Source: Streptomyces aurantiacus (lineage in GTDB: Bacteria; Actinomycetota; Actinomycetes; Streptomycetales; Streptomycetaceae). Taken from it: 64,000 bases of DNA. The translations under genes and the position numbers were made by a program. The notes beneath the pieces were generated by a model. That model made no database searches, had not been told where the DNA came from, and was given only the letters and a program-made list of their open reading frames with translations. The stretch spans positions 3,782,001 through 3,846,000 of the forward strand of contig NZ_CP114283.1 in the NCBI RefSeq assembly GCF_027107535.1, in the 5' to 3' direction. Shown one piece after another: positions 55,727 through 62,780 of the stretch. Each line of letters starts with the position of its first letter. Within the stretch, counting starts at the first letter, position 1.

Positions 55727-55739
55727 TAGAATTCAGGCA
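55727..55739 (+). promoter_or_regulatory. -10 box of the FHA-ABC gene, leaderless start
   Basis: TAGAAT at 55727-55732 ends six bases before the ATG at 55739, the distance expected if transcription begins at the start codon. No ribosome site is present. Confidence 0.6.
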
Positions 55740-58075
55740 TGGGAGAGCGGTCTGCGGCGCCCGAACTCGTCCTCGAAACCGAGACGGGATCCACGGTGAT
55801 GACCCCGAACCACGCCTACCGCGTGGGGCGGGATCCACTCTGCGACATCGTCATCGACGACGCCCGGGTGTCCTGGCACCACGCGGTCCTGCGGCCGGGC
55901 GCCGACCACTGGACGCTGGAGGACGAGAACAGCACGAACGGCACGTACGCCGACGGCCGCCGCGTCCGTGCGTGGGACGTCGGGCCCGGCAGTGTCATCC
56001 GCTTCGGCAACCCCGCCGACGGCCCGTGCGCCGTGCTCGCGGACCGGCCGCCGCCCGCCCCCGAGCGGCCCTCTGCCGTCTCGATGCCCGCGGCGACCGG
56101 AACCTTCCGGCAGCCCACCACCGTGCGGCCGCTGCCCGCCCGCTCCGTCCGTATCGGCCGTGGCGACGACAACGACCTCGTCGTCGACGACCTGAGCGTC
56201 TCCCGGCGGCACGCCGAACTGCGGGCGATGCCGGACGGGACGTACGAGATCGTCGACCTGGGCAGCCACAACGGCACATTCCTCAACGGCCAGCCCGTCA
56301 CCCGCGCCCGCATCGACGGGGGCGACATCGTCGGCATCGGCCACTCGGCGTTCTGCCTGGTCGGCGACCAGCTCCAGGAGTACGTCGACACCGGCGAGGT
56401 CTCGCTCGACGTGCAGGACCTGTCCGTCGCCGTCGACCGGGGCCGCAAGACGCTCCTCGACCAGGTCTCCTTCCCCGTCGGCGAGAAGTGCCTGCTGGCC
56501 GTCGTCGGACCCAGCGGCGCCGGCAAGTCCACGCTGCTCAACGCCCTCACCGGACAGCGCCCCGCCGACCGGGGCACGGTCCTGTACGACGGCCGCGACC
56601 TGTACCGGGACTACGCCGAGCTGCGCCAGCGCATCGGCCTCGTCCCGCAGGACGACATCCTCCACTCCCAGCTGACCGTGCGACGCGCCCTCGCCTACGC
56701 CGCCGAGCTGCGTTTCCCGCAGGACACCGCGAAGGCCGAGCGCAAGGCCCGGGTCGACGAGGTCATACACGAGCTGGGCCTCGAACAGCGCGCCCGGCAG
56801 CCCATCCACAGCCTCTCCGGCGGCCAGCGCAAACGGGTCAGCGTGGCACTCGAACTGCTCACCAAGCCGTCCCTGCTCTTCCTCGACGAGCCGACCTCCG
56901 GACTCGACCCCGGAATGGACCGCTCGGTGATGCACATGCTGCGCGGACTGGCCGACGACGGGCGGACCGTCATCGTCGTCACGCACAGCGTGCTCAGCCT
57001 CGACGTCTGCGACCGGCTGCTCGTCCTCGCGCCCGGCGGCAAGGTCGCCTACTACGGACCTCCCGACGAGACGCTCGCCTTCTTCGGCTACGAGCAGTGG
57101 CCGGAGGCGTTCGAGGCGTTCGAGCGGGATCACGACCGGGACTGGGCGGGCGACTACCGCGAGTCACCGCACCACAGGCAGTACATCGTGAACTCCAGCG
57201 CCCAGCCGCGCCTGCCCGAGGCCGCCCCGGCCCCCGGTACGGTCGCCCGCCCGCCCAAGGCACAGAGCTGGGGATCGCAGCTGGGCACACTGGTGCGCCG
57301 GTACGCGGCGGCGCTCAGCGCCGACCGGACGTTCCTCGCCATCATGATCGCCCTGCCCTTCGTCATGGGAGCGATGGCCCGTGCCCTGTCGGGGAGCAAA
57401 CTGACGCAGGAGACGGCGATGAACGCGCTGCTCATCCTCTGCGTCGGCGGAGTCCTGACCGGCGCGGCCAACGCGGTGAGGGAACTGGTCAAGGAACGGG
57501 TGATCTACCAGCGGGAGCGGGCCGTCGGCCTGTCCAGATCGGCGTACCTGATGTCCAAGGTCGTCGTCCTCGGCACGATCACCGTGCTCCAGGCCGTGGT
57601 GCTGACCCTGGTGGCACTGCTCGGCGTCGACCTGAACGCGCCCGGCGGCGAGGGAGTCGTCCTGCCGCCACTCGTGGAGATCACGCTCGCCGTCGCGCTG
57701 CTGGCCTTCACCGCGATGATGCTCGGCCTCCTCGTCTCCGCACTGGTGCGCAAGGAGGAGGTCACGATGCCGCTGCTCGTCCTCCTCGCCATCGTCCAGG
57801 TGGTGTTCTGCGGTGCGCTGCTGAAGCTCGACGGCGTCCCCGGCATCGAGCAGCTGTCGTGGCTGGTGCCGTCGCGCTGGGCGCTCGGCGCGATGGCGGG
57901 CACCATCGGGCTGGCCCGGCTGGTCCCCGGCGACCTGACGGCCGACCCGATGTTCCGGCACTCGGTGGGCGTGTGGCTGCTCAACATGGGCATGCTCGTC
58001 GTCCTCTCGGCCGTCTTCGGCTACCTGGTGGCCCGGCTGCTCAGGCGGCACGAACCCGAAGTCATGCGGAAGTAG
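55739..58075 (+). CDS. FHA-FHA-ABC transporter, Rv1747-like
   Basis: A 778-residue fusion: FHA domain 1 (about 22-90, with RVGRDPLCDIVIDDARVSWHH), FHA domain 2 (about 130-195, RIGRGDDNDLVVDDLSVSRRH), ABC ATPase (about 225-445, GPSGAGKST, LSGGQRKR, LLFLDEP) and an ABC-2-type membrane domain (about 515-775, six hydrophobic segments). This matches M. tuberculosis Rv1747, which PknF phosphorylates and whose FHA domains bind its phosphothreonines. The third gene downstream here is also a Ser/Thr kinase, so phosphorylation control is likely; the exported substrate is unknown. Start ATG 55739 is probably leaderless. Confidence 0.92.
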   Translation: MGERSAAPELVLETETGSTVMTPNHAYRVGRDPLCDIVIDDARVSWHHAVLRPGADHWTLEDENSTNGTYADGRRVRAWDVGPGSVIRFGNPADGPCAVLADRPPPAPERPSAVSMPAATGTFRQPTTVRPLPARSVRIGRGDDNDLVVDDLSVSRRHAELRAMPDGTYEIVDLGSHNGTFLNGQPVTRARIDGGDIVGIGHSAFCLVGDQLQEYVDTGEVSLDVQDLSVAVDRGRKTLLDQVSFPVGEKCLLAVVGPSGAGKSTLLNALTGQRPADRGTVLYDGRDLYRDYAELRQRIGLVPQDDILHSQLTVRRALAYAAELRFPQDTAKAERKARVDEVIHELGLEQRARQPIHSLSGGQRKRVSVALELLTKPSLLFLDEPTSGLDPGMDRSVMHMLRGLADDGRTVIVVTHSVLSLDVCDRLLVLAPGGKVAYYGPPDETLAFFGYEQWPEAFEAFERDHDRDWAGDYRESPHHRQYIVNSSAQPRLPEAAPAPGTVARPPKAQSWGSQLGTLVRRYAAALSADRTFLAIMIALPFVMGAMARALSGSKLTQETAMNALLILCVGGVLTGAANAVRELVKERVIYQRERAVGLSRSAYLMSKVVVLGTITVLQAVVLTLVALLGVDLNAPGGEGVVLPPLVEITLAVALLAFTAMMLGLLVSALVRKEEVTMPLLVLLAIVQVVFCGALLKLDGVPGIEQLSWLVPSRWALGAMAGTIGLARLVPGDLTADPMFRHSVGVWLLNMGMLVVLSAVFGYLVARLLRRHEPEVMRK

Positions 58076-58087
58076 GAAGCAGGCGCG

Positions 58088-58861
58088 ATGACGACGACTC
58101 CCGACTTCCGTCCCACGCACGTGGTCCCGCAGGACGGCATGCCCGCCTGGGACGCCCCGGACCCGGTCCGGCCCACCGTGCCCCTCGACGCCCTCCTGCC
58201 GGTCCGGCTCGTCGAGCGCCTCGGCGACTGGGGGCACGTCCTGTGCGCCAACGGATGGTCCGCGTGGGTCGACGGCCGCCTGCTCGTCGCCGTCCCGCAG
58301 GAACCGCCCGCCGCCGGGCAGCCGCTCGCCCGGACCGCCGACCCGCGTCCGCTGCTCGCCCGCGTCGAGGAGACGCTGGGCCGCTACCGGCAGACGGTCG
58401 AGGAACTGGCGGCCGGCCACCTGGACGGCGAGGCGTTCCACGGCAGGACACAGGGCATGCGCGTCGGGATCGTCGTCGAGGGCGAGGCCGTCTGGCTGTA
58501 CGAGGCCGAGCACGAGCGGTGGGTGTACTGCGACGGCACCCGGATGAGCACGTACGCGACGCAGGAGCCGCCCGCCGCGGCCGGCGCCGCGCCGTCCGCC
58601 CGGCCTCCCGCCCCGTCCGCCCCGGCCGGGACCAGGCCGCCCGCCGGACCCGGCCGTCCGCCCACACAGGTCGTACCGGGTGCGGGCCCGGAGCCCACGC
58701 AGGTCGTACCGGGTCTCGGGCCCGAGCGGGGCCGAGGGGCGCCGGGCGCGGGGCCGGAACCCACGCAGGTCGTGCGAGGCACCGGACCGGACCGGCCACG
58801 GGGCGGGGAGGACGCCGGTCACGCCCCCACCCGGCTCGTCACGGGTGACGGTGACGAGTGA
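58088..58861 (+). CDS. PTQVV-repeat protein, likely kinase/FHA partner
   Basis: A 257-residue protein of unknown fold: an N-terminal folded part (about 1-155; RPTHVVPQ at 8, then WGHVLCANGWSAWVDGRLL) and an Ala/Pro/Gly-rich tail (about 160-257). The tail carries PPTQVVPG, EPTQVVPG, EPTQVVRG and APTRLVTG. Each Thr has Val at +3, the preference of many FHA domains (pT-x-x-V/I/L/D), so these threonines may be phosphorylated by the downstream kinase and read by the upstream FHA domains. It lies 12 bases after the FHA-ABC stop, and its TGA overlaps the kinase ATG. Inference, not proof. Confidence 0.75.
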   Translation: MTTTPDFRPTHVVPQDGMPAWDAPDPVRPTVPLDALLPVRLVERLGDWGHVLCANGWSAWVDGRLLVAVPQEPPAAGQPLARTADPRPLLARVEETLGRYRQTVEELAAGHLDGEAFHGRTQGMRVGIVVEGEAVWLYEAEHERWVYCDGTRMSTYATQEPPAAAGAAPSARPPAPSAPAGTRPPAGPGRPPTQVVPGAGPEPTQVVPGLGPERGRGAPGAGPEPTQVVRGTGPDRPRGGEDAGHAPTRLVTGDGDE

Positions 58862-59862
58862 TGCCGCACGACACCAGTCTGCACTCGGGGCGGCCCTCCG
58901 ACCTGATCGGCAAACAGATCGCGGGCTACCGCATCGAGCGCGAGGTCGGCCGCGGAGGGATGGCCGTCGTCTACCGGGCCAAGGACCTGCGCCTGGACCG
59001 CACGGTCGCCCTGAAGCTGCTCGCCCCGGAACTCGCCCGCAACGACACGTTCCGCAAACGCTTCACGCACGAGTCGCGCGTGGCCGCGGCCATCGACCAC
59101 CCGCACATCGTGCCGGTCTTCGAGGCGGGCGAGACGGACGGTGTCCTCTACATCGCCATGCGGTACGTCGCCGGCCTTGACCTGCGCCATCTGCTCGACC
59201 GGGAGGGGCCGTTGGCCCTCCCGGTGGCCGCCCGAATCGCCGTGCAGGTGGCATCCGCCCTCGACGCCGCCCATGACCACGGTCTGGTCCACCGGGACGT
59301 CAAACCCGGCAACATCCTGGTCGCGGCGGGCACGGACAGCGACCACCCCGAGCACGTCTACCTCACCGACTTCGGTCTCACGAAGAAGTCACTGTCCCTC
59401 ACCGGCTTCACGACGGTGGGCCAGTTCGTCGGCACGCTCGACTACGTGGCACCCGAGCAGATCTCCGGGCGGCCGGTCGACGGCCGCTGCGACGTCTACA
59501 GCTTCGCCTGCGTCGTGTACGAGACCCTGGCCGGCCGCCCGCCCTTCCAGCGGGACGACGACATGGCCCTGCTGTGGGCACACCAGTACGACCAGCCGCC
59601 GCCGCTGACCGGCGAGCGGCCCGGACTCGCCGCGCCCGTCGACGGTGTGCTGGCGAAGGCACTCGCCAAGAGCCCCGACGACCGGTACGAGTCGTGCCTC
59701 GCCTTCGTGGCCGCGCTGCGCGCCGCGGCGACGGGGACCGAGGTGGTGGGGCACGCGCCCACCCAGGTGGACCATCGAGCTGCCGGGACGCCCCAGCGGC
59801 CGGGGCCGCCGCCCGAGCCGCCGGAATGGGCTCTGCCCGTGTTTCCTCGCTCGCGCTGGTGA
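58861..59862 (+). CDS. Serine/threonine protein kinase
   Basis: A Hanks-type kinase of 333 residues. It has the Gly loop VGRGGMAVVY, the Lys in TVALKLL, HRDVKPGN, DFGLTKKSLS (activation segment with several Ser/Thr), GTLDYVAPEQ and a C-lobe CDVYSFACVVYETLAG. The C-terminal tail (about 290-333) has GHAPTQVDHRAAG, the same kind of PTQV motif as the neighbouring protein. No transmembrane segment or PASTA domain is present. Start ATG 58861 overlaps the previous stop; GTG 58858 is possible. It likely phosphorylates the FHA-ABC system. Confidence 0.93.
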   Translation: MPHDTSLHSGRPSDLIGKQIAGYRIEREVGRGGMAVVYRAKDLRLDRTVALKLLAPELARNDTFRKRFTHESRVAAAIDHPHIVPVFEAGETDGVLYIAMRYVAGLDLRHLLDREGPLALPVAARIAVQVASALDAAHDHGLVHRDVKPGNILVAAGTDSDHPEHVYLTDFGLTKKSLSLTGFTTVGQFVGTLDYVAPEQISGRPVDGRCDVYSFACVVYETLAGRPPFQRDDDMALLWAHQYDQPPPLTGERPGLAAPVDGVLAKALAKSPDDRYESCLAFVAALRAAATGTEVVGHAPTQVDHRAAGTPQRPGPPPEPPEWALPVFPRSRW

Positions 59863-61345: not shown

Positions 61346-61508
61346 CCTGCCACGCTAAGCAGCCTGCCGGTGGTGCGCCTGCCGGGAGGGCCGACCGCGT
61401 CGGCTCGCGGGCGATACAGGATCGGAGCACACAAGGTGCTCATTGCGGAAGAAAGCTGTACTAATCGGTTGAAGTGCCGCATTGTCCCTACGCCGGGAAG
61501 AAGAGCTC
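61346..61508. promoter_or_regulatory. Divergent promoter region, streptophobe / DUF6777
   Basis: Holds the inverted repeat GAGCAC (61425-61430) and GTGCTC (61436-61441) and a -10-like TACTAAT at about 61458-61464. Confidence 0.45.
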
Positions 61509-62780
61509 GTGAGCGTCGAACCGCCGTCCTCCGGCCGCCCCACAGGACCACCCTCCGGCCCCTTGTCGGGACCGACCAGGCCGAGCCCCACGCCGCCGCC
61601 CGACGAGCGCACCCCCGCGGGCCCGTCGAGCGGTGGATCGGGCGGCGGCCCTTCCGGCCCCTCAGGCCCCTCGGGTGGAGGATCCGGTGGGTCCGGCGGA
61701 CCGGGTGGACCCGGCGGGGGCACGGGCAGGGGACCCGACCGGCCCTGGTGGAGGTCGGCGCCGCGGGTCGCCGTCATCGCCGCCGCGGTCGTCGCCGCGG
61801 TGGTCCTGGTCGTCGTCCTCACCCGGCCCGACGACAACAGCACCACCAGCTCGGGCGGCGAGGTCTTCCTCCAGTCGGCGGGCAAGTCGGGACCCGACCC
61901 GTTCACCGAGTCGACGGCGAAGGACAGCTCCACCGCGCCCGTGACGCCCTCGCCCACGGACGCCCCCGAGTCGGACAACGTGACGCGGGGCGTGGACGGT
62001 TCGGCCCCGGGCCTCTACGGCGGCACACGGAAGGTGGCCAGCTGCGACGTCGAGAAGCAGATCTCGGCGCTCGAAGGGGCTCCGGAGAAGAACAGGGCGT
62101 TCGCCTCGGTGCTGGGTCTCCAGCCCTCCGGCGTGCCCGCGTATCTGCGCTCGCTCACCCCCGTACAGCTGCGGATGGACACCCGCGTCACCAACCACGG
62201 CTACAGCGACGGCAAGGCCACCAGCTACCAGGCGGTCCTGCAGTCCGGCACCGCGGTCCTCGTCGACGACCGCGGCGTCCCCCGGGTGCGCTGCGCCTGC
62301 GGCAACCCGCTGCTGCCGCCCGTGGCGCTCAAGTCCACACCCAAGAAGACGGGCGATTCCTGGCCGTCCTACCGGCCGTCGAACGTCGTGGTCGTCACGC
62401 CCGCGCCCCAGGTCATCAACATCTTCGTGATCTTCGACCCGGACAGTGGCGACTGGTTCGAGCGGCACAAGGGTGACACCGGTGGCAAGGACCGGAAGAC
62501 GGATCCTCCGGCGAGCCGGCCGTCCCCGTCGACGAGTTCCCTGCCTCCTTCGTCGGTGCCCCCGGCCTCCTGTGTGCCGGTGCCGGAGGGTGCGACCGCG
62601 ACGCCGAGCGGTTCGGAGAGCCCCTGCCCCTCGACATCGTCGGCCACGCCGTCCGCGGAGTCCGATTCGCCCTCGTCCGAACTGCCGCCGTCGGAGCCCT
62701 CCGACCCGGCGCCCGACGACGCCGACACGACGACGGAATCGGCCGCCAGCCAGAGCGTCCCGGACTCGGGCGCCACCTGA
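61509..62780 (+). CDS. DUF6777 membrane-anchored protein
   Basis: A 423-residue protein: N-terminal Pro/Gly-rich cytoplasmic part (about 1-75), one TM segment (RVAVIAAAVVAAVVLVVVLT), and an exterior domain with GEVFLQSAG, PGLYGGTRKVASCDVEKQI, RMDTRVTNHGYSDGKATSYQ and RVRCACGNPL, the core of DUF6777. A long Ser/Pro/Thr-rich tail ends the protein. Function unknown. Start GTG 61509 follows GGGAAGAAG. Confidence 0.82.
   Translation: MSVEPPSSGRPTGPPSGPLSGPTRPSPTPPPDERTPAGPSSGGSGGGPSGPSGPSGGGSGGSGGPGGPGGGTGRGPDRPWWRSAPRVAVIAAAVVAAVVLVVVLTRPDDNSTTSSGGEVFLQSAGKSGPDPFTESTAKDSSTAPVTPSPTDAPESDNVTRGVDGSAPGLYGGTRKVASCDVEKQISALEGAPEKNRAFASVLGLQPSGVPAYLRSLTPVQLRMDTRVTNHGYSDGKATSYQAVLQSGTAVLVDDRGVPRVRCACGNPLLPPVALKSTPKKTGDSWPSYRPSNVVVVTPAPQVINIFVIFDPDSGDWFERHKGDTGGKDRKTDPPASRPSPSTSSLPPSSVPPASCVPVPEGATATPSGSESPCPSTSSATPSAESDSPSSELPPSEPSDPAPDDADTTTESAASQSVPDSGAT

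Follow-up and report, generated by a model that had tools for sequence, protein, structure and literature searches.

The window analysed here is the 64,000-nucleotide stretch of Streptomyces aurantiacus contig NZ_CP114283.1 between positions 3,782,001 and 3,846,000, and its plus strand carries three consecutive genes, which encode an FHA-FHA-ABC half-exporter of 778 residues (55739-58075), a protein of 257 residues referred to as MID (58088-58861) and a soluble Hanks-type Ser/Thr kinase of 333 residues (58861-59862). MID and the kinase meet in the letters TGATG, with the MID stop TGA at 58859-58861 and the kinase start ATG at 58861 (or GTG at 58858), and the compact operon described in an earlier note, made by a model from the DNA letters, was thereby borne out. 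The two FHA domains that the note had ascribed to the exporter were also found by Pfam (FHA1 at residues ~27-90 and FHA2 at ~137-201), together with an ABC ATPase, the nucleotide-binding domain (240-387), and an ABC2 membrane domain (514-721). The same holds for its threonine motifs, which are PTHVV at the MID N terminus (58112-58126), three copies of PTQVV (58661-58675, 58694-58708 and 58760-58774) and one PTRLV (58826-58840) in the MID tail, and the related PTQVD in the kinase tail (59758-59772). At +3 from the Thr, all five of the motifs in MID have V, whereas the kinase motif has D.

MID is predicted to consist of an SH3-like domain (residues ~5-72), a part with helices and beta strands (~87-156) and a Pro-rich tail, for which no secondary structure was predicted and which carries the threonine tags. 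The conservation of these tags was read in the best 80 of 122 confirmed Streptomyces relatives, from at least 592 matching stretches; this sample leans to close relatives, the nearest MIDs in other strains being 96-97% identical to that of the window, and one sequence (locus L004) holds one undetermined residue. The tails range from 22 to 357 residues, with their start set at residue 158 for the 55 of 80 loci in which the core-end pattern gave no match. The motif [PA]Tx[VIL][VILD] was found in 78 of the 80 tails and the strict form PTx[VIL][VIL] in 66; a conserved Thr that is followed at +3 by V, I, L or D, within a loose tail, is what an FHA ligand is expected to offer. The 80 tails hold 123 strict motifs in total, whereas shuffling them 1000 times gave 0.63 on average and never more than 4, and the density of the motif per 1000 residues is 19.4 in the MID tails, compared with 0.024 in the exporter and kinase domain of the same loci. 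The genome (9.9 Mb) has no general excess of PTxVV, since the corresponding DNA pattern was matched 252 times and its reversed control 248 times, whereas the single 774-base MID gene holds four PTxVV.

The number of tags proved to be far less stable than their presence. Strict counts of 0, 1, 2, 3, 4, 5 and 8 were obtained for 14, 38, 16, 5, 3, 2 and 2 of the 80 loci, respectively. The first two PTQVV copies of the window lie inside a 33-base tandem duplication (58660-58724), and the near relative L001 reads PTRAV at the place of the first copy, so the copy number of three is not conserved. Conservation of the motif number among relatives, which the earlier note had offered as a check, was consequently upheld for the presence of at least one tag and not for the number itself, and the strict counts of 0-8 and the tandem duplication exclude a conserved repeat number as a functional constant. 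The short MIDs (178-183 residues, 26 loci) end in a cassette close to GHAPTQVVTPDG, which the C-terminal cassette DAGHAPTRLVTGDGDE of the window MID (58811-58858) resembles. All 26 have kept both the Thr and the V at +3 through synonymous codon changes, and the residues beside the Thr vary (P or A before, Q, R or E after). The shuffles and this short-form conservation rule out chance or low complexity as the source of the tail tags, and, as judged from these comparisons of sequence together with the variable counts, the duplication and L001, the tail tag is under selection and its copy number is labile.

The N-terminal motif behaves differently. P[TS]H[VI][VI] is retained in 80 of 80 Streptomyces MIDs, and a THVVP or THTTP stretch is also found in remote MID relatives that have no tail motif. 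The conservation of RPTHVV is probably structural, given its position at the beginning of the predicted SH3-like domain and the A or T found at +3 in 17 of the 23 MIDs read from other genera. The inclusion of RPTHVV among the phospho-motifs by the earlier note was therefore not sustained, and an additional phospho-site at this position is unlikely.

MID belongs to no described family among those searched. No match to MID was found in Pfam up to an E value of 0.1 or among PDB sequences up to an E value of 1, the sole NCBIfam row (E 0.31) was far under the cut-off, and no literature on the adaptor was found among open-licence papers. Of the possibly undescribed scaffold suggested in the earlier note, the absence of a covering Pfam or NCBIfam family and of a PDB sequence match stood. 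The full-length structure model was poor (predicted local distance difference test score, pLDDT, 55) and a core model was used instead, in which residues 5-72 align to SH3 domains and SH3 domains fill the rows of the fold search; these residues may form an SH3-like barrel, as predicted by the model. The window MID gave no match to the curated SH3 profiles. P0059 reached 15.9 bits against Pfam SH3_4 (cut-off 24.1) and remote MID relatives 13.3-16.4 bits against SH3_3 (cut-off 27), all under the cut-offs, and two of the remote relatives carry the UniRef name 'SH3 domain-containing'. MID would resemble the bacterial SH3 proteins (SH3_3, SH3_4) in this modelled barrel and differs from them in having no membrane segment by hydropathy and in its additional alpha/beta part and tail. 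Remote relatives of the MID core were also seen outside the operon, at L089:6374-6934 and in L155, L156 and L157, without tail tags, and in L156 and L157 the similarity is limited to the SH3-like part.

The exporter has the domain order and the intact phosphothreonine (pThr) pockets of an Rv1747-type FHA-ABC half-exporter. Its residues 3-97 match FHA-1 of Rv1747 (6ccd, E 2.6e-8) and residues 129-204 match FHA-2 (6cah, E 2e-13), and FHA2 is matched by GarA and TB39.8 chains as well. The five pocket residues described for Rad53 and for Rv1747 FHA I (PMC5549992; all papers given here by PMC number are cited from excerpts) correspond to G30, R31, S45, H48 and N67 in FHA1 and to G140, R141, S155, H158 and N178 in FHA2, and the spacing R31-S45-H48-N67 of FHA1 equals that of R33, S47, H50 and N69 in Rv1747 FHA I (PMC5549992). 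Both pockets are identical in 78 of 78 Streptomyces exporters with a full frame, two of the 80 loci being left out because of incomplete frames (the exporter frames of L030 and L048 are read as ending early), and in 22 of 22 further exporters, 21 from other genera plus L151 from the same genus, giving 100 of 100. A conserved linker stretch (ATGTFRQPTTVRPLP / TGTFRQPTTVRPLP, 56093-56137) lies just before FHA2 and contains TGTFRQPTTV. Of 78 Streptomyces orthologues, 71 retain the TGTFR and 53 the PTTV of this stretch, and the six exporters compared from other genera have similar letters there; the stretch is a candidate phospho-site of the exporter itself.

The kinase matches Pfam PF00069 and shows the catalytic motifs HRDVKPGN, DFG and APE. 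It shares Hanks-type motifs with PknF of Mycobacterium tuberculosis, which has a transmembrane segment, whereas hydropathy indicated none in the window kinase (19-residue maximum 1.43, no window above 1.6). Of 74 complete Streptomyces kinases, 52 carry a tail motif [PA]Tx[VIL][VILDA], against 2.2 on average and 7 at most after shuffling. When the first match of each tail is taken, 35 have D at +3, 13 have A and 4 have V, so that the PTxVD/A form is present in 48 of 74 tails; in L002 and L039 the first match sits upstream of PTQVD or PTEVD. The C-terminal PPEWALPVF of the window kinase (59818-59844) is of the type PxWAxPV[FYV], found at the end of 72 of 74 kinases in Streptomyces and of 22 of 22 in other genera. 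As this end is more constant than the threonine tag, it could serve as a second docking motif, perhaps one that engages the SH3-like domain of MID. No kinase consensus motif is given in the excerpts of PMC4946905 and PMC4389566.

The arrangement of the operon is widely kept in Streptomyces. The exporter is the neighbour of MID across the 80 loci, with a gap of at most 60 bases in 77, counting the long overlaps in L010 and L050, which are probably due to start codons called too far upstream. A kinase match follows MID in 75 of 80 loci, and the two reading frames overlap in 68 of these 75. Of the five loci with no kinase match, L021 stops at a contig edge, and in the other four (L026, L032, L076 and L080) a streptophobe-family gene on the opposite strand lies within ~45-205 bases past MID; because the next conserved gene follows so closely, the kinase gene is missing at this place. 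Sampling at three ranks gave MID in 24 of 41 genomes for the genus, in 30 of 71 for the family (core query; the 30 belong to 6 of 17 genera) and in 6 of 118 for the class, every one of these six being a Streptomyces. A core FHA-ABC paralogue with 57-61% identity was found in 12 of 12 Streptomyces genomes compared, whereas a close orthologue of the window exporter (79-100%) occurs in 3 of 3 MID-positive and in 0 of 8 MID-negative genomes; in the ninth MID-negative genome (G017) a contig end truncates an 80% exporter match. Within these 12 genomes, MID goes with this accessory exporter and not with the core paralogue.

A further 27 loci were read, and with L155-L157 (remote, without exporter) and L151 (same genus) left out, 23 from other genera remained, of which L146 has no kinase in its stretch, leaving 22 kinases. 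The placing of the tag differs in this set, since only 3 of 23 MID tails hold the motif, with V at +3 solely in L158 (KTRVV), compared with 18 of 22 kinase tails, 15 of them with V and 3 with D at +3 (shuffling gave 1.2 on average and 6 at most). The kinase tails of L136, L137 and L142 read GHAPTQVVT, the very letters that end many short Streptomyces MIDs. The exporter tree was built with FastTree only, from 93 rows representing 72 of 80 Streptomyces and 21 of 23 other-genus loci, rows without a full exporter or a complete kinase being dropped. Over these rows a tag is placed on MID in 68, on the kinase in 14, on both in 3 and on neither in 8, where D-type tags count as none and where L046 and L065 are not labelled 'both', their match being PVFTGLVR at the kinase end. 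The tree fits a single gain of the MID tag in the clade of L158 and the 72 Streptomyces rows (support 99), with losses in L023 and L051. As read from these tails, the tag is a property of the operon, on MID or on the kinase, and it would have moved between the operon proteins.

A known parallel to the motif and its reader comes from M. tuberculosis, where pT237 of Rv2623 (pTRVV) is bound by FHA I of Rv1747 and the T237A change weakens this interaction (PMC5549992). PknF and Rv1747 are encoded in one operon and the transporter is positively modulated by the kinase; Rv1747 is an in vitro substrate of PknF, and their interaction in the yeast two-hybrid system needs both FHA domains (PMC3908365). 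Condensates formed by the phosphorylated FHA region of Rv1747 are reported in a review (PMC9312465). The window operon shares with the system of these three papers an FHA-FHA-ABC half-exporter beside a Ser/Thr kinase, FHA domains that match by sequence (FHA1 to FHA-1 and FHA2 to FHA-2) and a tag akin to the pTRVV described as an Rv1747 FHA I ligand. It differs in having three genes, with MID between the exporter and a downstream kinase, whereas the mycobacterial operon has two and the kinase lies directly upstream, and in carrying the tag in the tail of MID or the kinase rather than in a universal stress protein. The locus would represent a new variant of the PknF-Rv1747 type of module. A second parallel is CwlM-FhaA (PMC6180346), in which C-terminal threonines of CwlM bind an FHA domain once phosphorylated by a kinase; unlike the present case, CwlM is amidase-like and acts in peptidoglycan control, and FhaA is no transporter. 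The PpkA-TssW-Fha set of type VI secretion (PMC12607579) likewise joins a kinase and an FHA protein with a third gene, located between the two, that influences both the placing and the activity of a membrane machine, whereas TssW is described as an outer-membrane protein and no PTxVV tail is mentioned for it in the excerpt.

The explanation that is favoured, with moderate confidence and on the strength of sequence comparison, is that MID is a phospho-adaptor to the FHA-ABC exporter, the kinase phosphorylating tail threonines of MID to which the FHA domains of the exporter bind. MID would connect the soluble Ser/Thr kinase with the exporter, its folded SH3-like and small alpha/beta part probably docking a partner and its loose tail presenting one or more PTx[VL]V threonines. 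These would be phosphorylated by the operon kinase, or by another kinase where that one is missing, and binding of the phosphorylated tail by the FHA domains would recruit and cluster adaptor, kinase and exporter and change export activity. Several tags per tail could permit multivalent binding to both FHA domains of each half-exporter. In the related genera with the tag on the kinase tail, the kinase itself would then be the phospho-ligand. Phosphorylation, FHA binding, clustering and the effect on export are all steps that we infer. Of the switch between kinase, scaffold and exporter proposed in the earlier note, the operon, the tail motif, the intact FHA domains and the kinase motif held, and the four loci with no kinase and the untagged MIDs of other genera did not fit.

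Several observations weigh against this phospho-adaptor role. The four kinase-less loci, known at the level of the site, retain the tag at the MID C terminus as PTRLV, ATRVV or PTRVV, which suggests that the operon kinase may not be obligatory. The MID tag is lost in L051 and L023, and the motif is in neither the MID nor the kinase tail of L139, L144 and L149 from other genera. That MID in other genera is usually without a V+3 tag, and the kinase with it, speaks against a strict three-part switch. The correlation in tag placing comprises three independent pairs, for which a sign test is uninformative, and the difference in placing, being one event on the tree, is unreplicated and suggestive. 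One tag need not serve both FHA domains, since Rv2623 bound FHA I and not FHA II of Rv1747 (PMC5549992). Moreover, the S. aurantiacus genome has ten FHA matches, so other FHA proteins could be the readers.

This last point leads to a first alternative, considered unlikely, in which the tags are phosphorylated but are read mainly by another FHA protein (GarA-like, FhaA-like or others) and the exporter is a mere genomic neighbour. Besides the ten FHA matches, it draws on the loci that keep the tag without a kinase at this place, which make partners outside the operon possible. Against it stand the adjacency of exporter and MID across all 80 loci, the tracking of the accessory FHA-ABC by MID (3 of 3, with the core paralogue in 12 of 12 and a contig-cut match in 1 of 9 MID-negative genomes) and the precedent itself, in which the reader is an FHA-ABC protein (PMC5549992).

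An alternative given about the same low probability holds that the tags are not phospho-ligands, the unmodified PTxVV either binding something else, for instance by strand addition, or serving as a kinase docking site. The folded N-terminal PTHVV is indeed retained, apparently for structural reasons, and the phospho-state of the tail tags is itself a proposal from sequence. However, in the short forms the Thr is constant in 26 of 26 while its neighbours vary. Selection by FHA domains is said to act on the +3 residue (PMC5549992), which is mostly V in the tails of MID, whereas 48 of 74 Streptomyces kinase tails have D or A there. A third alternative is the least probable. In it, the kinase tail would act as the FHA ligand in all genera, and the MID tail of Streptomyces would compete with it by occupying the FHA domains, so tuning or blocking the recruitment of the kinase. 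In its favour, the tag is found in 18 of 22 other-genus kinase tails, PTxVD/A in 48 of 74 Streptomyces kinases and a GHAPTQV core in both MID and kinase; against it, 22 of 74 Streptomyces kinases lack the pattern, and the V+3 tag of MID is kept in 21 of these 22.

A bolder extension of the phospho-adaptor role, to be taken as tentative, can be drawn from the same data. The phospho-tag may have moved in Streptomyces from the kinase to the SH3-like adaptor MID and multiplied there (up to 8 strict copies), with the kinase tail shifting to PTxVD/A; the tail might then act as a multivalent ligand that can be tuned and so set the clustering and possibly the condensation of the exporter, and the SH3-like domain may hold the conserved PxWAxPVF end of the kinase.

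Beyond the operon, the streptophobe-family membrane protein (NCBIfam NF038391; 60068-61345, minus strand) lies directly after the kinase gene in the window, and its gene was found within the fetched flanks of 70 of 80 loci. A DUF6777 protein (61482-62777, plus strand) is a further conserved neighbour, in 55 of 80 loci within the fetched flanks. A further member of the streptophobe family (NF038391, E 5e-156) is encoded divergently beside the core FHA-ABC paralogue in the single locus examined (L087:3798-5666, minus strand). The presence of such a protein near the window exporter and the core paralogue alike suggests that streptophobe proteins may work with FHA-ABC exporters; no mention of 'streptophobe' was found among open-licence papers. 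No kinase or MID was recognised beside the core paralogue in the 12 kb of L087, where four of eight open reading frames were scanned by Pfam without a kinase and the rest were judged by their terminal residues. A second TQVV end was seen in an FtsW/RodA protein (L088:410-1849, minus strand; G000:C2:32412-33845) encoded near FhaA and a PP2C phosphatase (Pfam), which ends in EMTQVVRP, with one extra residue in some cases, in 24 of 24 Streptomyces loci read (25 genomes searched). This case supports TQVV as an apparently recurrent tag near FHA genes in Streptomyces.

FHA domains are frequent in actinobacteria and, to our knowledge, few of their natural ligands are known there. In the present operon, which belongs to a soil genus that includes harmless laboratory species, sequence alone names both the likely reader and the likely ligand of an FHA domain, and natural variants are at hand in which the tag is single, present in many copies or placed on the kinase, or in which the kinase is missing. 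If the phospho-adaptor role of MID is true, a kinase signal would reach a membrane exporter via a loose multi-site adaptor, and the operon would offer a model of FHA-ABC regulation outside pathogens.

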